Source: a virus
Reading direction: 5' to 3' (one strand)
Virus record (IMG/VR): IMGVR_UViG_3300009285_001081
Coordinates: 1 to 22,599 of that record
DNA: 22,599 bases
The notes beneath the pieces are model-generated. The model was not told where the DNA came from. It saw only the letters and a list, made by a program, of their open reading frames with translations, and did not search any database. This document shows, piece after piece, positions 2,425 through 18,072 of the stretch. Each line of letters begins with the position of its first letter. The first letter of the stretch is position 1. The position numbers were made by a program, and so were the translations under genes.

Positions 2425-2540
2425 TTACTTAACAAAACTATTAACATAATAAAGATTGAGTATAATACTGCTGCCACGTTTCCAGATAATGATGCAAAAC
2501 CACCATAAGTAGCAGCTAAACAAAAAACTAGCCATTTCAT
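2421..2540 (-). CDS. 39-residue membrane protein in the glycosyltransferase cassette
   Basis: A very short ORF fills the gap between glycosyltransferase copy 2 and the methyltransferase. It reads MKWLVFCLAATYGGF, then a short polar turn (SLSGN), then a second hydrophobic run ending in LIVLLSK. That gives two likely membrane spans with a short loop. Both ends show the 4-base ATGA overlap: its ATG overlaps the stop of the upstream gene, and its TGA overlaps the methyltransferase ATG. Such perfect fit on both sides argues strongly for real translation despite the size. No family is recognised. It could anchor the cassette enzymes at the membrane or help pass a lipid-linked sugar, but both ideas are speculative. 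Confidence 0.7.
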   Translation of the reverse strand: MKWLVFCLAATYGGFASLSGNVAAVLYSIFIMLIVLLSK

Positions 2541-3442
2541 AGTATCCATCCCATCTCCTTTACTTGTCTCTTCCAATCTAACGGCCAACTCGGCATACTT
2601 GGAAACTTCTCATCAACAAACCACTCAAAGTCATGTACTCTGTCCTTCCACTTATTATTTAACCAATAATCGGCACTCCAAGCCGAAGCCTTGACCGTGT
2701 AGTCGTTCCAGCTGGGTATACTGTACATCCGTCCATAAGTCTTACCTTTGTGTAAATGAGCGTAGAAGGTCTTTTTGTTGACTTTCATCGCTCCTCCACC
2801 CAACCATGTCTTGAATCCAATTTCTTGTGACTCTTGCGAAAACTGGCCGTACCCCACCTCTCCTGGTACTGGATACTCTTCTAATCCATGCAAAAAGTTA
2901 TCAAAATGATTTTTAGCCATAAAATAACAGCTCCCCTGCATTGAGGCTGTATCATCCATGTCGTACTCCGGACCGATTCGTTCTCGTTGTCTCCCATACC
3001 ACTCCACCCCATGCATACCGTCGTCGTGGTCTTTTCCCTTCCGGGGAAAATCTATATACATATAGTCCCTGTATGGTCTTGAATAATTAATACACCAGTT
3101 CTCTGCGTCTAAAGAGTACCTACGGGGTATCTGTACCCACTTGTCGTCTAAATGGGCCTCTATGAGGATCCTGTCAAACTTGGGACCAAACAAACAGTGG
3201 TCATCTGTTTTCATTATGTACTTACCCTTAGCCACTGCTACACAAGCATTAATACCCTTCCTCAAACCTATTGGAGCGTCTGGATGAAGATATGTGACCC
3301 TTGAATCCTCTACGCGCGTATCTGGCAAATTCTCGTCTATATTTACGATTACCTCGATCTCGTCTACTGCTTTTTCCAAAATATCCTGAATCGTACGGGT
3401 CAAAAACTGGCAATTCCGGCTCGGAATTATCACTGACAACAT
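2537..3442 (-). CDS. Family 2 glycosyltransferase (GT-A fold), copy 2
   Basis: The 301-residue enzyme begins MLSVIIPSRNCQFLTRTI, the GT2 first strand. EVIVNIDEN follows, and the metal-binding TDDH motif is at 79-82. Its C-terminal half shares VNKK-x-x-YAHLH and a closing DFEWFVDEKF then MPSWP with the copy at 808-1695, so the pair arose by duplication and then diverged. No membrane span is seen. A near-perfect promoter (3451-3480) sits directly before the ATG, making this the first gene of a unit that runs through the small membrane protein, methyltransferase, CPVC protein and second glycosyltransferase. The start is ATG with GGAAG just upstream. Sugar and acceptor are unknown. Confidence 0.85.
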   Translation of the reverse strand: MLSVIIPSRNCQFLTRTIQDILEKAVDEIEVIVNIDENLPDTRVEDSRVTYLHPDAPIGLRKGINACVAVAKGKYIMKTDDHCLFGPKFDRILIEAHLDDKWVQIPRRYSLDAENWCINYSRPYRDYMYIDFPRKGKDHDDGMHGVEWYGRQRERIGPEYDMDDTASMQGSCYFMAKNHFDNFLHGLEEYPVPGEVGYGQFSQESQEIGFKTWLGGGAMKVNKKTFYAHLHKGKTYGRMYSIPSWNDYTVKASAWSADYWLNNKWKDRVHDFEWFVDEKFPSMPSWPLDWKRQVKEMGWIL

Positions 3443-3809: not shown

Positions 3810-4829
3810 CTAGAAAGGCAAAGATGGTGACGGCGATGCCGATGGTGAAATAGACGCAGATGGACTTGCAGACTTAGACGCTGAAGCTGAACCACTGGCC
3901 GATCCTGAAGCCGAGGCTGACGCAGACGGAGACAACGACTTTGAAGCAGACGCCGATCCTGACGCAGACCCAGACGCTGAAGGACTAAGAGAAGCACTTG
4001 CACTAGCCGATGGTGACTGACTAGCAGATGGTGACAGCGAAGCGCTGGCCGACGCTGATTCTGATGCAGACGGCGAGAGAGAGGCAGAAGCTGACGCACT
4101 GGCAGACTTAGAAGCAGAAGCCGATGCGGACGCTGATGCTGATGCTGACGGACTAAGAGAAGCCGAGGCAGAACCACTGGCAGACCCAGACGGACTAAGA
4201 GATGGCGAAGCTGACGCGGATTTAGACGCGGAAGCACTCGCTGATGGCGATAGTGACTTTGAAGCAGACGCAGATGGGCTAAGAGAAGCTGATACAGAAG
4301 ACGACGCCGACGCTGACGGTGAAAGACTGGCAGATGCAGACTTAGAGGCTGAAGCCGAACTGGACGCTGACGGCGACTGTGACGCTGACGGCGAGAGACT
4401 GGCTGATGGTGAGAGACTTGCACTTGGTGATACTGATGCTGATGGAGAACTCGATAGATCAGTCGTTGTAGCCGAGGTTATCAGTTCCCAAACGGCAGAC
4501 GTGCCCGTACCAACATTGACAAATATCCTGTTCCCGTCTTTGTTCAGCTTGTAAAAAAGCGCTCCCCTTTTGAATCCAGAGTCTCCGGTTGGCAGACTGT
4601 CACCTTCGGCCTCTGCAATCAAATCTGTAGAAAGTTGGGCATTAGGAGTCTGGGCGCCATAGATTTGGTCAGTATCCCACCGGAGAATGGCATTAGTCTG
4701 ATAAGGAAGTAAGGCCGCCAAGAAATTGGCCTCCGCCGTAGTTCGATTAGCACTGGAAATCGCGAGAACCCTGTCAATCTCGTTTTGAACCGCCTTTGAC
4801 AAATCTGTTTTGATTTTGAATATAGCCAT
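3810..4829 (-). CDS. Serine-rich repeat protein in the head module
   Basis: In this 339-residue protein, residues 1 to about 125 are ordinary sequence (MAIFKIKTDLSKAVQNEIDR, then a segment with GALFYKLNKDGNRIFVNVGTG), likely the virion- or fibre-binding part. From about 126 to the end it is almost only Ala, Ser, Pro, Leu and a few Lys/Gly in SPSAS, SASAS and LSPSA units, roughly 210 residues. There is no signal peptide, so it is not a normally exported adhesin; assembly into the particle is more likely. The position just after the major capsid gene fits a decoration or fibre protein. Long Ser/Ala/Pro tracts are favoured O-glycosylation targets and sticky, flexible stalks. Two glycosyltransferases lie just downstream. 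Start: ATG at 4829, no strong ribosome site. The function is an inference. Confidence 0.7.
   Translation of the reverse strand: MAIFKIKTDLSKAVQNEIDRVLAISSANRTTAEANFLAALLPYQTNAILRWDTDQIYGAQTPNAQLSTDLIAEAEGDSLPTGDSGFKRGALFYKLNKDGNRIFVNVGTGTSAVWELITSATTTDLSSSPSASVSPSASLSPSASLSPSASQSPSASSSASASKSASASLSPSASASSSVSASLSPSASASKSLSPSASASASKSASASPSLSPSGSASGSASASLSPSASASASASASASKSASASASASLSPSASESASASASLSPSASQSPSASASASLSPSASGSASGSASASKSLSPSASASASGSASGSASASKSASPSASISPSASPSPSLPF
3813..4450 (-). repeat. Degenerate in-frame repeats encoding Ser-Pro-Ser-Ala units
   Basis: The DNA is a run of degenerate 6-base and longer units (GCTGACGGC, GCAGACTTA, GCTGATGGT and similar on the plus strand) that encode SPSAS and SASAS blocks on the minus strand. 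Synonymous bases vary between units, so the array is old or is held by selection on the protein rather than being a fresh tandem expansion. It also creates a long false open frame on the same strand in another phase. Confidence 0.75.
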
Positions 4830-9544: not shown

Positions 9545-10792
9545 CTATCCTGGCAAACCTTCAAATAACGGCTTGATACCACCCGGATCGTTAGGCTTCC
9601 AGTTTACTAGTTTCTGCCCGCTCGCAATAGCATAACGAAGAGCATCCATTGTGTGATCCCATCCCTCCCCTGGCTCATTAAGAATTTTTTCATTCTTGTC
9701 CGTAATCCATACATAATTCCTATACTCTTTAATTATATTCAAACTCTTTTTAGTCACTGAAATCCTCTGATCTTGAACAAACCCAATACTCCATTTGATA
9801 AATGTGTCTGTTTTGTTCTCGCCCCTTTGTTTTGAGACTCCGACAATATTGACACCATAGCTTTTAATCTCGTCTATACTCTTGGGTTCCGCACTATCAG
9901 CAATTACTAATGCTCCCGGCAAAGCAAGAAAGACATCTGCGATCAGCTTATTAGACAATCCTTTCAAATAGGTTTGCTCATCCAGAATATAACCACCGTT
10001 GTATTTGTAGACAGCCACAATAGCAGTCGGATCGTTTGAGTAACCAAAGTCCAGCCCATACTTATCAAGCCTCGCCTCATGGGGAACCTCGTCTATAAAT
10101 TCCCAACCTTTGTAAATACGACTCTCAATTACTCCAAGCTGTCCGAGACCATAAACGGTCCACCAGTTTTTATTATTACGATGAGACTCAATCTCTTTCT
10201 TACTAACTACATCTAATCCCTCATTATCCAAATAAGTCAGGGTAATAAAATCAATATCGTCTTTTCGGCTTGGTAGCATATCCAAATAAAACCAAAACTC
10301 ATTCGTTGGATTCCAGTCGAGCCAAACCACTTCCCTCGTCCGAGTAATCAATTGATCGACAATGTTGAAATGCAAGTTATTACACTCATTCAAAAACAGT
10401 ATGTCCCGGCGTGGCCCATGAGCCTTCCCATAGGTGTCTACTGAAAAAAACTCTAGTTTGTTACCATTATTCCAAGTGTATATGTGTTTAGTTTTATTCC
10501 ACTTGCTATCATCCCAGTACCCCCGATCTTTCATTATTATCTCAAAATCCAACATCGCCCCTTTTTCCAAATGAGGGTACGATTCGGAAACCACGGTTGC
10601 CAGTTTCTCTCTTTCTTGCCTTTTTTGACAGTAATCAATAAGCCAAATAAGAATCGAGACTGTCTTAGAAGCCGACGTTCCACCACACACTGCTCGAATC
10701 CTTTTGGTCAACTCAAATATCTTCTTAGTAGCAGAAGTATCAACTATGTTGTACTGTTTCTGTTGCTCTTCCTCCATATATGGGCTTACCAT
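9545..10792 (-). CDS. Large terminase subunit (packaging ATPase and nuclease)
   Basis: In this 415-residue protein the ATPase domain has a Walker A-type loop, GGTSASKT at 37-44, preceded by the RIRAVCG strand. Walker B is DILFLNECNN near 130. The nuclease domain has the three expected acidic sites: KYGLDFGYSNDPTAI, then ALVIADSAEPKSIDEI, then GWDHTMDALRYAI near the C-terminus. These match the PBSX-like/T4-like TerL family. The protein pumps DNA into the prohead and cuts the concatemer. Its start overlaps the small subunit gene by 53 bases; an alternative ATG is at 10777. The Walker A loop has Ser where Gly is usual before Lys, a variation common in this family. Confidence 0.92.
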   Translation of the reverse strand: MVSPYMEEEQQKQYNIVDTSATKKIFELTKRIRAVCGGTSASKTVSILIWLIDYCQKRQEREKLATVVSESYPHLEKGAMLDFEIIMKDRGYWDDSKWNKTKHIYTWNNGNKLEFFSVDTYGKAHGPRRDILFLNECNNLHFNIVDQLITRTREVVWLDWNPTNEFWFYLDMLPSRKDDIDFITLTYLDNEGLDVVSKKEIESHRNNKNWWTVYGLGQLGVIESRIYKGWEFIDEVPHEARLDKYGLDFGYSNDPTAIVAVYKYNGGYILDEQTYLKGLSNKLIADVFLALPGALVIADSAEPKSIDEIKSYGVNIVGVSKQRGENKTDTFIKWSIGFVQDQRISVTKKSLNIIKEYRNYVWITDKNEKILNEPGEGWDHTMDALRYAIASGQKLVNWKPNDPGGIKPLFEGLPG

Positions 10793-11156
10793 CGGTTTTT
10801 ATATCCAGATGGTCAGTGATACGCTGTTTGAGTTTGTTGTATTCTTTCAAAGCGCCAAGTTTGTTAGTAAAGTCTGCGTTTTGAGTCAAAAGCATTTTCA
10901 ACTGTTTGTCCACAAAAGCATCATTTAATCCACCTTCTTCAAGAAGTTCATTGATCCGATTCAGAATCTTAACATTTGTTAACAGCCGAGAAGCGGCCGC
11001 TACACACGTTTTGTACCAGTTCGGTTTTGACCTGTCTACCTCATCCCCATAAGCCTCCATATAACTTTCAACCCCGTTCCCAAAAAACTCTCTGTCTGTC
11101 GCATAAAGCTGACAAAATAATTCTTGCTTTGGATTTAACTTATCGTCTGTTGCCAC
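10740..11156 (-). CDS. Small terminase subunit
   Basis: The 138-residue protein starts with LNPKQELFCQLYATDREFFG, the opening helix of Terminase_2/XtmA-like small subunits. An Ala/Tyr-rich HTH region follows (YMEAYGDEV and CVAAASRLLTNVKILNRINE), then a coiled C-terminal part (LKMLLTQNADFTNKLGALKE) typical for oligomerisation. It recognises viral DNA and regulates the large subunit. The start is GTG, preceded by AAAGGAG at good spacing, and it overlaps the stop of the 30-residue membrane ORF by one base (TAGTG). Adjacency to TerL makes the call firm. Confidence 0.85.
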   Translation of the reverse strand: MATDDKLNPKQELFCQLYATDREFFGNGVESYMEAYGDEVDRSKPNWYKTCVAAASRLLTNVKILNRINELLEEGGLNDAFVDKQLKMLLTQNADFTNKLGALKEYNKLKQRITDHLDIKTDGKPIYGGRATETVQHS

Positions 11157-11248: not shown

Positions 11249-11493
11249 TTCTTCTCCTTCTTCTGCTTTGCCAACTCCACGTCTTCCTTTTTAATCTCTT
11301 CCGGAGTTAAAACAGCCCTGACAACCAATCCATTATTCGATCCACGAACTTTCTCAATTATAACAATCTCCGGCACAAATCCGAATTTCTTCATTAAATG
11401 AATCGGCATGAATTGCCGGCCAGGTTTATCTTTCAACTTAAACGGCGTACTACTCCTAACTCTCAATCCTTTGTTTTCAATTTTCTCACTCAT
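11245..11493 (-). CDS. Unknown 82-residue basic protein
   Basis: A Lys-rich protein with a compact middle: RQFMPIHLMKKFGFVPEIVI, then EKVRGSNNGLVVRAVLTPEE, then a Lys/Glu tail ending KQKKEKK. The P-x-x-L-x-K-x-G-F-x-P segment could be a small DNA-binding or swapped-hairpin fold, but I do not recognise a family. Both ends overlap neighbours by 4 bases, so it belongs to the operon leading into the terminase genes. Confidence 0.6.
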   Translation of the reverse strand: MSEKIENKGLRVRSSTPFKLKDKPGRQFMPIHLMKKFGFVPEIVIIEKVRGSNNGLVVRAVLTPEEIKKEDVELAKQKKEKK

Positions 11494-11771
11494 ACTGTCC
11501 TCAATCCTACATAAAAAGTTCTATTAGATAACGAAGATGAACAATAAGGACACTGCGTCATCGTGGCTTTTCTCAAATAACCCTTCTGCAACAAACCGAT
11601 TAAAGCATTCAATGTTGTCGGTTGGCCCACACTAGTCATTATCATATTCTCAATTATCTCTTTTTGGGGTATGGGAGTCTTCTTCTCCCTCGCCCAAGAA
11701 TTTACAAAGGTCATTATATCAGTTTGTAGTTTCGTTATCTCACTAAGATTAGAATAAACAGCTTGGGGCAT
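11490..11771 (-). CDS. Winged-helix protein with a CPYC motif, likely regulator
   Basis: The 93-residue protein from ATG 11771 starts MPQAVYSNLSEITKLQTDIM. The core looks like a winged helix: helix 1 IMTFVNSWAREKK, then PIPQKEIIENMI, then the recognition-type helix QPTTLNALIGLLQKGYL, then a wing (RKAT, CPYCSSS, FYVGLRTV). It probably binds DNA, perhaps the TGAACA array about 330 bases upstream. A longer GTG start at 11798 is possible, but a TATAAT box (11790-11795) overlaps that start, which favours ATG 11771 with a leader of about 12 bases. Alternative: a small structural wing domain. Confidence 0.6.
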   Translation of the reverse strand: MPQAVYSNLSEITKLQTDIMTFVNSWAREKKTPIPQKEIIENMIMTSVGQPTTLNALIGLLQKGYLRKATMTQCPYCSSSLSNRTFYVGLRTV

Positions 11772-11789
11772 TTTTATACCAACTTGTCC

Positions 11790-11817
11790 ATTATACACCC
11801 ACTGTAAGCCCCGTAAA
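11790..11817 (-). promoter_or_regulatory. Promoter candidate before the winged-helix gene
   Basis: On the minus strand, TTTACG (11812-11817) and the exact -10 box TATAAT (11790-11795) are 16 bases apart. The -10 lies 18 bases from the ATG at 11771. The -35 box is poor. Confidence 0.45.
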
Positions 11818-11863: not shown

Positions 11864-12079
11864 TCAACCTTGCCACGCCCTGTATGCTACTTCACCGCTT
11901 GTTCCAAATATGAATACCGCCCAACTAAACTGCTTGAACACCCCCAGCCGTTCCAGCGCTTCGTAATAGCTTTCAATCAAAAGCTGCGACTGCTCTGTTT
12001 GCTGATGCGACTGACACCAGGCACCGGCAGACGCCAGCTTCTTAAAAAGAGATTTAATTTCCAACAAGTTATTACTCAT
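11864..12079 (-). CDS. Unknown 71-residue protein downstream of the repeat array
   Basis: The frame from ATG 12079 begins MSNNLLEIKSLFKKLASAGA and continues through helical ESYYEALERLGVF to a Trp/Phe-rich end. A longer GTG start at 12145 would put coding sequence across the hexamer array and is less likely. After the stop, the +1 frame stays open and reads protein-like (KVEANAEVVRAREPPEPLF) to 11791, so the gene may be frameshifted or use a programmed shift. No family is recognised and no ribosome site is visible. Moderate confidence that it is a gene. Confidence 0.5.
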   Translation of the reverse strand: MSNNLLEIKSLFKKLASAGAWCQSHQQTEQSQLLIESYYEALERLGVFKQFSWAVFIFGTSGEVAYRAWQG

Positions 12080-12101: not shown

Positions 12102-12255
12102 TGTTCAAAAAGCGTGTTCACTATTACATAGTGAACAGTGAACACACTTTTTTAGATAACACAGGGATTTTGAACAGGCTTTTGAACACTGTTTTATGGT
12201 TATGGCTATAATAGGCTATATTATAAAGCGTGTTCATGAACAGACTCCATGAACA
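12102..12255. repeat. Array of nine TGAACA hexamers, iteron or operator cluster
   Basis: TGAACA or its complement TGTTCA occurs nine times: 12102, 12115, 12132, 12139, 12171, 12183, 12231, 12237 and 12250 (first base). Several extend to TGAACACGCTTT or TGAACACACT. Two copies form a perfect inverted repeat (GTTCACTAT-TAC-ATAGTGAAC, 12116-12136), and the copies at 12231 and 12237 are back to back. Between copies 6 and 7 lies an AT-rich stretch with GGCTATA twice (12204, 12214). The array fills the gap after the helicase gene. It fits a replication origin with iterons or a multi-site operator. Confidence 0.75.
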
Positions 12256-12259
12256 GGGT

Positions 12260-13864
12260 TTACTCCCCGTCCTCTTCAATTTTCACGGCGTTAATTAAAA
12301 AATAACTCTTTTTGCTTTTGTTTTGCGGGTCACTTGTCTCGTCAATAATTCCATCCTCCAGCATTTTCTTCAGACTTCTTCTGACAGTGCTTTCGGACAT
12401 TCCTCTGCTTTGACATAATTCTATAATTCCCTTTCGAGAAATGAGAGATTCTACACCCAACATTTCCTCTATGGTTGCCCGGGCCTCATCGGTTTTCTCG
12501 TCTGTGTTCCCAGCGACTACCCCCACATACTCAAATCCCGTCACCTTAGTGCTCCCGTCTTCGTTGTTCTCCACCACCATCCTAATCATAAACTTATCTA
12601 ACTTTTGTGCATCTCTGGCCTTGGTTTGTTTGAGAGTAAGTTCAGTTTTACTCTTAGCTACAGCCTCCAGCCTAAATAAAGTATTCGCCTGGGCGTTAAT
12701 GTTAGATGATCCCCGGATTCTTTGACTATCTGACCTGAATACTCCTTGGCTGGGCTTATTCTCGTGGTGGAGCGGAAGAAATGCTTTCTTGGGAAATAAT
12801 TGTTTGAGAGCGTCTATAAAAGCCTGTGTATCTTCGGCCTTGTTTTCCGTGCCTACCATAAGGTCAATAAATGAATCTATGATAATTAGATCAATATTGT
12901 CCTCCTGAACGCTTTGAGAGAGCGCCTTGGCAAACGGACTAAATTCACCTTTGCCGTCCACCAGCTGGAACTTCTCCGGATATTTGAGCCACTTCACGCT
13001 GTCGCCAGTTAGTCCCATTCCCTCCAGCCTCTTAGCTATAATTGAGGTTGGGTTCTCTTTGTCTATAAATAACACTTTGCCGGGCCTGGCCACCTTGAAT
13101 TGTCCCAGCCAAGGTTCGCCGGAGATAATAGCTTTGGCTATTGAAAGCGTGAGAAAACTTTTACCGACTCCCTCGGCACCGTAAATGAAGCAAAATCCTT
13201 CGGAATAAATGATCTTGTCTATCAGCCAAGGCTGATCGTCAAATGACATGGCTCGGAGTTCGGTGGCGGTTACTTGTTTATAGTCCTCCGGGCGGTTCAC
13301 TCTCTCCCATTCTTCTTTTGTCAGCGCCTTGCGCATCAGGGCTATAAAATCCGCCTTGTTGTGGCCGTCTACAAAGAAGTCGCACACGTCTTTGTACTTG
13401 TTTGGAAGCTGGATTACTTTGGCTTCTGGCAGCAGCTCCAATACTTTTTTGACCCCAGACTGGCCGGCGAAATCAGAGTCGTAGCAGACAAAGGTCTGCG
13501 TTGACTCCAATAGAGTCGACCAGTCTTGGTCGAACTTTTGACTCCCGCCTGTTGAAGACACCGAGGGTATGCCCTCCTGATTAAGTCTCACGGAGTCGAT
13601 TTCTCCCTCGCAGATCACCACATAGGGCCTGCCCTTGACAACGTGATAATTAAACAGAGCGGCGCGGGAACCGCTATCGGAGCGGTACTTGGCTGATTCG
13701 GGATTGTCTTTGCTGTAATGGAGGTTCCGGTGCTTCGAGAATATAGTATTGCCTTCGGCGTCTTTGATGGGAATGTGTATCTCTTGGTCGTCCCACGACA
13801 GACCCATGGATTTGGCATAGTCCGGATTTACGCCGTGGTCTTTGAAATATTGGTCGGCTGTCAT
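12260..13864 (-). CDS. Toprim plus RecA-like ATPase (primase-helicase) with C-terminal winged helix
   Basis: This 534-residue protein has three parts. The Toprim domain has PYVVICEGEIDS (80-91, catalytic Glu 87) and CYDSDFAG (127-134, DxD). A RepA-like RecA/AAA_25 ATPase has Walker A GAEGVGKS (229-236), strand VLFIDKEN (264-271), Walker B LIIIDS (326-331) and LPLHHENK (363-370, sensor region). The C-terminal winged helix at about 462-515 contains SRKGIIELCQSRGMSESTVR. It should unwind DNA and take part in priming with the CHC2 protein encoded just upstream, which overlaps it by 4 bases. The DnaG-type N-terminal catalytic subdomain is not apparent, so a true primase activity is not certain. 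The adjacent TGAACA array could be its origin or operator. Confidence 0.85.
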   Translation of the reverse strand: MTADQYFKDHGVNPDYAKSMGLSWDDQEIHIPIKDAEGNTIFSKHRNLHYSKDNPESAKYRSDSGSRAALFNYHVVKGRPYVVICEGEIDSVRLNQEGIPSVSSTGGSQKFDQDWSTLLESTQTFVCYDSDFAGQSGVKKVLELLPEAKVIQLPNKYKDVCDFFVDGHNKADFIALMRKALTKEEWERVNRPEDYKQVTATELRAMSFDDQPWLIDKIIYSEGFCFIYGAEGVGKSFLTLSIAKAIISGEPWLGQFKVARPGKVLFIDKENPTSIIAKRLEGMGLTGDSVKWLKYPEKFQLVDGKGEFSPFAKALSQSVQEDNIDLIIIDSFIDLMVGTENKAEDTQAFIDALKQLFPKKAFLPLHHENKPSQGVFRSDSQRIRGSSNINAQANTLFRLEAVAKSKTELTLKQTKARDAQKLDKFMIRMVVENNEDGSTKVTGFEYVGVVAGNTDEKTDEARATIEEMLGVESLISRKGIIELCQSRGMSESTVRRSLKKMLEDGIIDETSDPQNKSKKSYFLINAVKIEEDGE

Positions 13865-14166
13865 CTTGATAATTCCTCCACTGCCTGGGCAAAATTACTT
13901 CCGGTTTTCTTCATATAATATGTAACTGCATCACCGCCGGATGAACAAGCAAAGCAATACCAGGTGTTATTTTCCGGATAGATAGCAAAGCTGGGGGTCT
14001 TTTCTTCATGGAAGGGGCAACGGCCCATCATCACCTTGCCTACCTGTCTCAATCTTCCCTCGTACATTTTTTCAATGGGAAATTTCTTTGCCGTGGAGAG
14101 ATTGTTGTCTTTTGTGTACCGGTTCCATGCGGAGTGGACAATGTATCGGGGCTTGGAATTTAACAT
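13861..14166 (-). CDS. CHC2 zinc-finger protein, DnaG-type primase zinc domain as a separate gene
   Basis: The 101-residue protein carries the DnaG zinc-binding domain: C50-P-F-H53, then TPSFAIYPENNTWYCFAC with C71 and C74, followed by SSGGDAVTYYMKK. In DnaG this domain recognises the template start site. Here it is encoded alone and is coupled by a 4-base overlap to the Toprim-ATPase gene, so the two probably act as a split primase. It is the first gene of the minus-strand unit. A promoter (14176-14204) ends only 9 bases before the ATG, so the mRNA is nearly leaderless. There is no Shine-Dalgarno site. Confidence 0.88.
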   Translation of the reverse strand: MLNSKPRYIVHSAWNRYTKDNNLSTAKKFPIEKMYEGRLRQVGKVMMGRCPFHEEKTPSFAIYPENNTWYCFACSSGGDAVTYYMKKTGSNFAQAVEELSR

Positions 14167-14256: not shown

Positions 14257-14478
14257 ATGGTTAACGAATTGATGACTGTGACGCAAGTTGCCGGATACTT
14301 ACAAGTGTCTAGGCAAAAAGTATATGAGTTGATTAAAAGGAAACAAGACCCTTTGCCTGTAATCAGAAACATTGGTGAACAAAGCCCCCGCGTCTCCCGC
14401 GCTATCTTGGAAGGTTGGCTGGCTGGCGTTTTTGAAAATTCCCATATGGAGGATAAAGAAGGAGAAGAAAATGTTTAA
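14257..14478 (+). CDS. Helix-turn-helix DNA-binding protein, excisionase/MerR-like
   Basis: The 73-residue protein has MTVTQVAGYLQVSRQKVYEL (6-25), the classic HTH_17/excisionase pattern of two helices and a recognition helix. It is followed by LIKRKQDPLPVIRNIG, then PRVSRAILEGWLAG, as in small phage excisionase-like or Cox-like regulators. It should bind DNA, perhaps at the divergent promoters just upstream. ATG 14257 lies at the predicted transcription start; an ATG at 14272 also gives an intact domain. No Shine-Dalgarno site is seen. As first gene of the plus-strand operon it may control the early/late switch. It could instead be an excisionase if the phage is temperate, but no integrase is in the window. 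Confidence 0.8.
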   Translation: MVNELMTVTQVAGYLQVSRQKVYELIKRKQDPLPVIRNIGEQSPRVSRAILEGWLAGVFENSHMEDKEGEENV

Positions 14479-15070
14479 CGAGAAAGAATATAGAAAAAGA
14501 TATCGTATGGCTAACAAAGAATATTTCAAAGAATATGATAAAAAATACCGCGTAGCCCATCCCGAAAAAATTAAAGGAATTTATAAAAAATCTTCCTTAA
14601 AATGTGCTGAACATAAAAAGGAATACTATTTAGTAAACAGGGACAAGATACTTAAATACAAAAGAGAATATTATTTAACCCACAAGGACAAATTCAAGGA
14701 GTTAGGTAAAGTTTATCATTTGAAGAATCGTGATTTAATTCTTGAAAAACAGAAAAAACATTATCTGACCCACGAAAATCTTTATAAAGAATATCACTAT
14801 AAGAAAGCATATGGGGTTAATATAGATTTTCTCCTAGATATGCTTAAAAAACAAAATGGCCAATGTGCTATTTGTTTACATGAAATATCAATGGATGTTA
14901 AAAGGACTGACGAGAGCCGAGCTTTTGTTGACCATAACCATCAGAGTGGACAATTAAGGAAATTATTATGCAGACATTGTAATTCCGCAATCGGAAATTT
15001 TAAGGAAGACTTATCGGTAATGAACAACGCTGTTAATTACCTTTACAGCTTTGCGGGGGGAGGTGAATAG
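14471..15070 (+). CDS. Endonuclease VII-like HNH nuclease with a repeat-rich N-terminus
   Basis: The 199-residue protein starts at ATG 14471, with AAGGAG 8 bases upstream, overlapping the HTH gene by 8 bases. Residues 1-110 are repeated basic helices (KEYRKRYRMANKEYFKEYDK, REYYLTHKDKFKELGKVYH and similar). Residues 113-190 form the endonuclease VII domain: AYGVN, zinc Cys C132 and C135, FVDHNHQSGQLRKLLC (DHNH at 154-157), C167 and C170, then SAIGNF. Endonuclease VII resolves branched DNA before packaging; members with such N-termini are often free-standing mobile nucleases. Which role applies here is open. Confidence 0.88.
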   Translation: MFNEKEYRKRYRMANKEYFKEYDKKYRVAHPEKIKGIYKKSSLKCAEHKKEYYLVNRDKILKYKREYYLTHKDKFKELGKVYHLKNRDLILEKQKKHYLTHENLYKEYHYKKAYGVNIDFLLDMLKKQNGQCAICLHEISMDVKRTDESRAFVDHNHQSGQLRKLLCRHCNSAIGNFKEDLSVMNNAVNYLYSFAGGGE

Positions 15071-15073
15071 TTG

Positions 15074-15652
15074 ATGGGAAAATATGTAGTGAGTGAAGGA
15101 CGAGTTTTTGAGGCTTTGCCTGCTGATAAATATACTGCCGAAATATATGAGGCTAAACCATTTACCGGCACAGAGTACGGAACCTCGAATCCCCAAGATC
15201 AGGTTAAGTTTACTTTCGTTGTGCTAAATAACGACAAGATGATTCCTGAAGGTGACATAGAAGTTCCAGCAAGAGGACGGAGACTGTGGTTGCAAACAAC
15301 CACTAAGTTTTCTCCTGTCGGATCAAAGAAGTCAACCAATTTAACCCAGCTGGTAGCCGCGGTCTTTGGTCACGAACTTGAACCAGCAGAGGTAGAGGTC
15401 TTCGACGAAACAGACCTTTTGGGTAAACAGTTGTGCCTGTTGGTAGGACAGAAGAACCGCGAGGATGGCAGTATCGGCAACAAAATCTTGTCATTTTCCA
15501 AAGCGGATAAGCAACTCGAAAAGTATGATGACAGCGAGTTTGCGTCCAACCGTAAAGAAGCGGTCAGGAAAAGCGCTCCGGCAGTAGTCGATTCCGGAGA
15601 GGACTTTGAGGCAGAAATGGACAAAGCGGTGGCCAAAAAGGTCAAAGCATAG
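15074..15652 (+). CDS. Probable ssDNA-binding-like replication protein (DUF669-type)
   Basis: The 192-residue protein starts at ATG 15074 with GGAGGTG about 9 bases upstream. Its middle looks like an OB-type beta fold: [20 protein letters not shown], then [13 protein letters not shown], then [20 protein letters not shown], then [19 protein letters not shown]. The C-terminus is acidic ([13 protein letters not shown]), as in many SSB-like proteins. The pattern resembles phage DUF669/SSB-like proteins found near recombination and nuclease genes. It probably protects or organises ssDNA during replication. No invariant motif proves this, so the role is inferred from shape and context. Confidence 0.6.
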
Positions 15653-15707
15653 GATTCTGCTTGCTGGCCGTCAACCGGGCAGGATGGCGGCCAGAATGGA
15701 GAAACTT

Positions 15708-16172
15708 ATGAAAGGTAAACAAGGATTTCAAAGGAATCATTCCGGATTTCGCACGGAGGAAAGCTATAAAATGGCTGGTGCAAAAATTTCTGTGGTGATG
15801 AAAGGACGAGTTCCATCACAAAAAACTAGAGATGCGGCTGTTCTCGCCCACAAGGGAAAACATCCAACCAAAAAAGCTATTGAAAAAATGTCTACTGCTC
15901 AAATAAAAAGGTATGACAGGGTTGGACGAAAGAAATATAAAAGATATATACATATTCGTGACAAAAATTACAAACAATGGTTAAGTAATATTTTTCAGAG
16001 GGATAACTGGACATGTCAAACTTGTGGTAATCGGGGATGTTATCTAGAGGCCCATCATATTAAGTCTTGGTCTCAACATCCAGGGTTGCGTTATATTTTG
16101 GATAATGGAGTAACTCTTTGTTTAGACTGTCACAAATTAACTGACAATTATAAAAATAAGAGACATGGCTAA
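15708..16172 (+). CDS. NUMOD-type HNH endonuclease
   Basis: The 154-residue protein from ATG 15708 has GGAG 6 bases upstream; the frame is open further, to 15606. Residues 1-60 are basic with repeated Gly-x-x-Pro/Ser turns ([29 protein letters not shown]), like NUMOD3 DNA-binding motifs. The HNH core follows: C103 and C106, [13 protein letters not shown] (HH 116-117), NGVTLC with N133, then CLDCH (C138, C141, H142). It is a likely homing-type nuclease making a nick or double-strand break. It sits between the SSB-like gene and the PD-(D/E)XK gene, overlapping the latter by 8 bases. Confidence 0.85.
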
Positions 16173-17531: not shown

Positions 17532-17704
17532 AACTTACTAATAAAGAGAAATGGGCAAAGAAAATACGGAAGGAGATATTTAGTACACTTAATCTTCACT
17601 TACAAGTAAAAGGCAATAGTGTTGGGGTTTGGACATTGAATAGTGATGATCTAAAAAAAGTAGAAGACGCTTTTAATTTTCTTTCCACCAAAAAACAGAC
17701 ATGA
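17528..17704 (+). CDS. Unknown 58-residue protein
   Basis: The ORF begins MKLTNKEKWAKKIRKEIFST, has a strand-like VKGNSVGVWTLN, and ends in a helix DDLKKVEDAFNFLSTKK. A strong ribosome site (GGAGG, 8 bases before the ATG) and 4-base overlaps with both neighbours make it a convincing gene. No family is recognised. Confidence 0.65.
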   Translation: MKLTNKEKWAKKIRKEIFSTLNLHLQVKGNSVGVWTLNSDDLKKVEDAFNFLSTKKQT

Positions 17705-18072
17705 AAACAAGAGAAATAAAAAGGTATCCAAAACGAGGTCAATACGACAGAGCAAAGTCAAAATCTAATTCTGGTGTATTCCAGAAAGGACATAAAGGTA
17801 TGGTTGGTGAAGAAAATCCTATATGGAAGGGCGATGCTGTTGGTTATGGAGCTTTGCATGATTGGGTCAAAAGATATTTAGGAGAACCAAGATATTGTGT
17901 AACTTGCCACTCTTATAGAAAAAGGAAATACGAATGGGCTAGTAAAAGTAAACATTATTTGCGGGACTTATCAGATTGGAAAAGATTATGTACTTCTTGC
18001 CACAGAAAATTTGATGGACATGGATATAAGCTCTGGGAAACTATCAGGGCTAGAAAGGCTAAAAATGCGTAG
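17701..18072 (+). CDS. HNH-type zinc nuclease or zinc-binding protein
   Basis: This 123-residue basic protein has a Gly/Pro turn motif GEENPIWKGDAVGYGALHDW (NUMOD-like). C66-V-T-C69-H follows, then YLRDLSDWKRLC and C97-T-S-C100-H101 with RKFDGH. Two Cys pairs plus W-x-x-L-C-x-x-C-H are typical of a recurring phage HNH-like family. The first His of a standard HNH pair is less clear, so catalytic activity is not certain. ATG 17701 overlaps the previous stop. It may be a mobile nuclease or a DNA-binding accessory. Confidence 0.7.
   Translation: MKTREIKRYPKRGQYDRAKSKSNSGVFQKGHKGMVGEENPIWKGDAVGYGALHDWVKRYLGEPRYCVTCHSYRKRKYEWASKSKHYLRDLSDWKRLCTSCHRKFDGHGYKLWETIRARKAKNA

Follow-up and report, generated by a model that had tools for sequence, protein, structure and literature searches.

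A TGAACA iteron array directly behind a primase-helicase gene as a probable phage replication origin

We analysed a 22,599-nucleotide stretch of viral DNA (positions 1 to 22,599 of IMG/VR record IMGVR_UViG_3300009285_001081; hereafter the window) and found that an array of nine TGAACA boxes at 12102-12255 is probably a phage replication origin, whose iterons would be bound by the C-terminal winged helix of the primase-helicase encoded beside it. We put the probability of this reading, which is drawn from sequence comparison, at about 0.8. The original prediction had proposed that the iterons and an unwinding element form an origin next to the helicase gene, with a small winged-helix protein encoded at 11490-11771 as a candidate binder. 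An origin served by the helicase emerged from our analysis as the best-supported reading; the small protein did not hold up as the binder.

The nine boxes occupy both strands, three on the minus strand (starting at 12102, 12115 and 12231) and six on the plus strand (12132, 12139, 12171, 12183, 12237 and 12250), and are irregularly spaced, with TGAACACRCTTTT as the extended form. As had been predicted, each TGAAC and each GAACA within 12102-12255 belongs to a TGAACA hexamer, and four copies (12102, 12115, 12139 and 12231) share the longer form TGAACACRCT. Two boxes form a perfect inverted repeat (12115-12137; TGTTCACTAT / ATAGTGAACA, 3-nt loop), which was correctly recognised in the original prediction but measures 10 bp rather than 9 bp, and which also scores as terminator-like on the minus strand; the back-to-back pair is a 12-bp palindrome (TGTTCATGAACA; 12231-12242). 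The suspected excess over chance was borne out: the whole window holds 27 TGAACA, compared with 15.6 ± 3.7 in shuffled sequences (0 of 100 shuffles reached 27), and TGAACA peaks at nine per 154 bp, compared with at most four for other non-overlapping hexamers anywhere in the window, the array being its densest hexamer cluster. Density is uneven, with one cluster in the window and one at the equivalent place of a related 40.7 kb IMG/VR record (L001), where the 34 TGAACA in the 40 kb examined are clustered only there; no second cluster was found at another promoter in the window or in these 40 kb.

The boxes surround an AT-rich segment (12189-12228; 72.5% AT), which separates six of them from three and contains the doubled GGCTATA that had been anticipated (12204-12213 and 12214-12223). 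The 40 bp from 12189 belong to the 1.1% of 40-mers with the weakest stacking energy, and we propose the segment as a candidate unwinding element. The array takes up the entire gap between the primase-helicase gene and the next gene: its first box lies 5 nt past the helicase stop, outside the proposed initiator gene, and 22 nt separate the end of its last box from the ATG (12079) of a small ORF directly behind it (11864-12079, minus strand), for which no family match was obtained.

The proposed initiator is a 534-aa primase-helicase (12260-13864, minus strand) with TOPRIM, AAA_25 (RepA-type) and C-terminal winged-helix domains; its helicase core is AAA_25 with a RecA fold, and no AAA+ core (SF3 or MCM-like) was found in it. 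A separate CHC2 zinc-finger primase subunit (13861-14166, minus strand; Zn_ribbon_DnaG, E 4e-20) is encoded by a gene overlapping the TOPRIM-AAA_25 gene, which places primase and helicase in one protein or operon. The winged-helix domain (about aa 460-525; 12290-12487, minus strand), our candidate iteron reader, matches HTH_24 with an E of 3e-4, just under the curated cutoff; all of its Pfam HTH matches are sub-cutoff, and the element order H-E-H-H-E-E is predicted at low confidence. Within it lies the putative recognition helix (aa 490-503, SESTVRRSLKKMLE; 12356-12397, minus strand), in which S492 and K499 align with the iteron-covarying residues of relatives described below. A fold match of this domain to the P4 alpha protein was considered and set aside: the model was weak, and most of the matches, all with E of 0.01 or higher, were to winged-helix regulators of a generic kind. 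The window also encodes small and large terminase subunits and portal-like genes, and terminase genes lie downstream of the array both here and, by ORF reading, in a more distant relative (L191). Elsewhere in the window, a 339-aa protein (3810-4829, minus strand) has a long Ser-Ala-Ser-Pro repeat, and its DNA has a reversed GC skew; judged from the translations, 808-1695 and 2537-3442 (minus strand) encode two proteins resembling glycosyltransferases among the structural genes, and three rightward ORFs (14372-15070, 15606-16172 and 17701-18072, plus strand) contain HNH-endonuclease-like motifs.

Conservation of the array in relatives, on which the original prediction depended, was observed. 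All nine boxes are kept in L001: none of the 54 box bases differs from the window, compared with 11 of the 129 other bases (hypergeometric p = 0.019), and the recognition helix (SESTVRRSLKK) is identical. L191, which has a homologous helicase with 52% identity, carries 13 TGACGA boxes spread over about 235 bp directly behind the helicase stop, around the AT tract ATTATATATTTATATATAT (17 TGACGA across the 5.5 kb locus), and its recognition helix is changed to SETTVDRVLKE; the 11490 protein and the 11864 ORF are both missing from this locus. From the window to L191, place and layout are constant, and word and reader have changed. A 17.6 kb contig (L003; 3300025087_000693) holds five boxes before it ends, its position 1 falling exactly at the box equivalent to 12171-12176, owing either to a repeat-caused assembly break or to strain variation. 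Compared with L001 6001-7605, the helicase gene is a mosaic in DNA identity (codons 1-195 identical, 196-440 63%, 441-534 90%), as if the ATPase core had been swapped between the winged helix and the primase part. The terminase region (~10343-11151, minus strand) is likewise swapped relative to L001, with no DNA match, a large-subunit protein that is 58% identical, and flanks of 92-95% identical DNA. The records of the terminase relatives L005-L009 contained no related helicase, a genome scan with the helicase as query returned no relative, and a scan for the palindrome plus AT tract, whose pattern fixed bases that vary in L001, returned no matches. A repeat cluster in L005 was rejected as an array; by eye it looks like a coding repeat.

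Covariation of the repeat word with the recognition helix was seen in two related families rather than in the window's own, because the latter has only three usable members. Profile comparison of the window helicase with these families gave Prob 98.3 over 167-495, and a second comparison gave Prob 97.9 over 197-518, winged helix included (L078 family). The L091 family (PrimPol-AAA_25-HTH), taken from the complete circular phage MW202867, has an array behind the stop in 61 of 61 loci with enough sequence; the words are mostly TGGGACA, with GGGGACA in five loci, CGGGACA in two and GGGTACC in the most diverged. Position 588, which sits in the helix aligned with the recognition helix of the window, at K499, is K in all five GGGGACA loci and Q in all TGGGACA and CGGGACA loci. 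Only 2 of 632 alignment columns separate the word groups, and the other column is variable within both; on a core tree built with the C-terminal part left out, two changes are required for the GGGG state, and a single change is enough in none of the bootstrap trees. The L078 family has AAA_25-HTH helicases and encodes CHC2-TOPRIM in a gene of its own. Here the residue just ahead of TA[HY]RWL, which aligns with S492 of the window, is V with TGATAGT, M with TGTTAGT, and G or A with TG[AC]GAGT forms; the core tree has four label changes, the sister pair L184/L186 included, and the arrays of L078 and L181 contain more than one word, with TGATAGT mixed in. In both families the associations were noticed first and counted afterwards. 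They point to the fused winged helix as the iteron reader in the L091 and L078 families and, by homology, suggest the same for the window; such covariation tells who binds, not why. An L091 relative has full P22-like structural genes. At 14432-14592 of MW202867 (L096), the annotated 55-aa hypothetical gene UOF82828 is overlapped by eight TGGGACA and by two perfect DnaA boxes, which makes this gene call doubtful.

Arrays are also present behind other helicases. Among 38 loci recruited mostly via the CHC2 gene, the 300 bp past the primase or primase-helicase stop were the most repeat-dense stretch in 10 and close to it in four more, with a repeat word that differs among families. The array-bearing loci scanned had either initiator-type helicases (DUF927, DUF5906/D5 or a 1050-1100 aa type) or AAA_25 helicases, and no arrays were found at those scanned with DnaB_C and VapE helicases. 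The CHC2 proteins of 1050-1100 aa (L028, L033, L043, L044 and L056) are followed by dense TTCTACA, TGCTACA or AACTACA arrays, possibly a second large class of such origins. In a mixed-profile search for AAA_25 loci, the 300 bp after the stop were the top repeat-density window in 19 of the 33 testable loci, compared with 5 of 347 control windows that follow other ORFs at these loci (Fisher 5e-19, a value that overstates the strength because the loci are not all independent). At the other 14 loci this stretch was not the most repeat-dense, and many AAA_25 helicases are without an array; the rule is not universal, since no array follows the stop of the AAA_25 helicases from Gordonia (L093, L095) and Mycobacterium (L092) phages.

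A perfect DnaA box lies within 300 bp past the stop in 37 of the 61 L091-family loci, which are related and non-independent, and DnaA boxes occur at 2.24 per kb beside these arrays versus 0.020 per kb elsewhere. No perfect DnaA box was found in the window, nor was one found in the L078 family or in the last AAA_25 set. The GC-skew switch sought at 12.1-12.3 kb did not appear; cumulative GC skew reaches its minimum at 13642, close to where the genes change direction, and the MW202867 array has no switch either. GC skew is uninformative on the origin, because the minimum is 1.4 kb from the array and explained equally well by gene direction.

The array might be an operator instead, with the LexA-like protein encoded at 11490-11798 (minus strand) or the helicase winged helix as regulator and with promoters in the AT-rich segment serving the leftward operon to the terminase. 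We consider this improbable, and such a function could coexist with an origin. Two promoter-like sites, recognised by consensus match only, use an iteron as -35 (2 found versus 0.7 expected, both kept in L001): TGAACA-18-TATAAT (12183-12212, plus strand), antisense to the helicase, and TGAACA-17-TATTAT (12208-12236, minus strand), directed towards the late genes. The 11490 protein has weak similarity to the LexA DNA-binding domain, and the terminase genes downstream of the array fit an operator as well. However, arrays lie behind homologous helicases where the 11490 protein is missing and the downstream genes are different ones, the repeat word covaries with the helicase winged helix, and a LexA-like regulator would always accompany its boxes and have them at several promoters, whereas the window and the 40 kb of L001 each have one TGAACA cluster only. 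The DnaA boxes adjoining the L091-family arrays, the AT-rich centre and the experimental analogues discussed below count for an origin over an operator. The regulator array that had been offered as the alternative is weakened, although the array may additionally serve as an operator of the late operon, given the promoter-like sites inside it.

We regard as very unlikely an origin that is read by a separate initiator, for instance the 11490 protein, and to which the helicase is merely recruited. The model for it is RSF1010, where RepA, a hexameric helicase and the closest type with a solved structure, depends on a separate binder, RepC, for its loading at iterons (PMC8965321). The window resembles RSF1010 in its RepA-type (AAA_25) helicase and its iterons; RepA, RepB and RepC are separate there, whereas primase, helicase and putative DNA reader are fused in the window, in which no RepC-like gene was recognised. 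The 11490 protein is small, likely DNA-binding and kept in L001-L004, but it does not track the arrays, being absent from L191 as well as the L078 and L091 families, all of which have arrays, and the covarying residues sit in the helicase. Its fold model is too poor for use (mean pLDDT 42.6); with a weak profile match and no co-occurrence with arrays, we rejected it as the box binder, the word changing together with the recognition helix of the helicase in the L091 and L078 families instead. Hardly any weight goes to a pac site, terminator, recombination hot spot or neutral functionless repeat: two boxes do form one terminator-like hairpin, terminase genes are nearby and the L003 contig ends within the array, but the boxes lie in both orientations at irregular spacing, are unchanged in L001 while the flanks change, and are replaced by other words at the same place behind the helicases of other phages.

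An origin read by the primase-helicase itself, the reading we prefer, has parallels in known systems. The type I iterons of P4 read GGTGAACA and have TGAACA in common with the window. The P4 alpha protein unites primase, helicase and a C-terminal origin-binding winged helix that reads repeats (PMC4234260), and the window protein likewise has primase/helicase and C-terminal winged-helix parts; the likeness is one of layout, with no sequence relationship of the domains demonstrated here, and the P4 alpha helicase is SF3, whereas that of the window is RecA-fold. SaPI Rep and SCCmec Cch2 are experimental analogues whose iterons are read by the C-terminal domain (PMC7581432), and PICI origins directly follow rep on its 3' side, with an AT-rich region flanked by two sets of iterons; plasmids carrying rep-ori replicate (PMC6092414). 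The window, and also L191, has the same arrangement as these systems, with iterons that directly follow the 3' end of the putative initiator-helicase gene and flank an AT-rich segment. Reading by the C-terminal domain, known for SaPI/PICI Rep and Cch2 (PMC7581432, PMC6092414), is proposed for the window from the covariation in related families, and the winged helix itself is seen there as sub-cutoff HTH matches and in the profile alignment with the L078 family. The SaPI/PICI Rep and Cch2 helicases are AAA+, unlike the RecA-fold window helicase, and SaPI, PICI and SCCmec elements are satellites or cassettes (SaPI and PICI having no capsid of their own and no terminase large subunit), whereas the window comes from a full phage with both terminase subunits and portal-like genes. 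By analogy, the primase-helicase most likely works like P4 alpha or SaPI Rep; we do not class it in their protein families because its helicase is RecA-fold.

PrimPol-RepA-winged-helix fusions of mobile elements are known, and the winged helix has been proposed for origin recognition in a related plasmid primase (PMC5862659). These fusions have the same domain order as the L091 family; no origin or iterons were assigned to them (PMC5862659), and the window has CHC2/TOPRIM, not PrimPol. In the archaeal plasmid pRN1, the origin lies directly downstream of orf904, a primase-helicase gene with a C-terminal winged helix (PMC4234260). The gene-then-origin placement would be common to both, but pRN1 has a stem-loop as its origin, with no iterons, and the origin of the window would be an iteron array. 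The iterons of the lambda-O origin lie inside the initiator gene, whereas the window array lies past the stop codon. Primase/RepA-helicase/winged-helix fusions are already known, then; for their association with an array downstream of the gene in ordinary tailed phages, and for covariation between helix and iteron, we found no precedent within a limited open-access literature.

We propose that the TOPRIM/AAA_25 primase-helicase would use its C-terminal winged helix to bind the TGAACA iterons on either side of the AT-rich segment, and that RecA-fold helicase rings would dock or assemble on the two iteron sets. The segment at 12189-12228 would open, a helicase ring would load and unwind the DNA, and the same primase-helicase, together with the separate CHC2 subunit, would lay primers. 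In this way a single protein, encoded beside its own origin, would be initiator and helicase and would supply most of the primase.

To our knowledge, the origins of most phages are unmapped. We lean slightly towards the view that a recognising and self-loading RecA-fold (RepA/AAA_25) primase-helicase, with a fused winged helix and an array behind its own gene, represents a widespread, undescribed origin class of ordinary tailed phages, with a helix-to-iteron code readable from sequence that may make origin and initiator predictable in many uncultured phages. If this is true, looking directly behind an AAA_25 primase-helicase would give both origin and initiator in many of them, and the paired switches of residue and base (Q/K with T/G; V, M, G/A with TGAT, TGTT, TGNG) would make recognition testable with short oligonucleotides.
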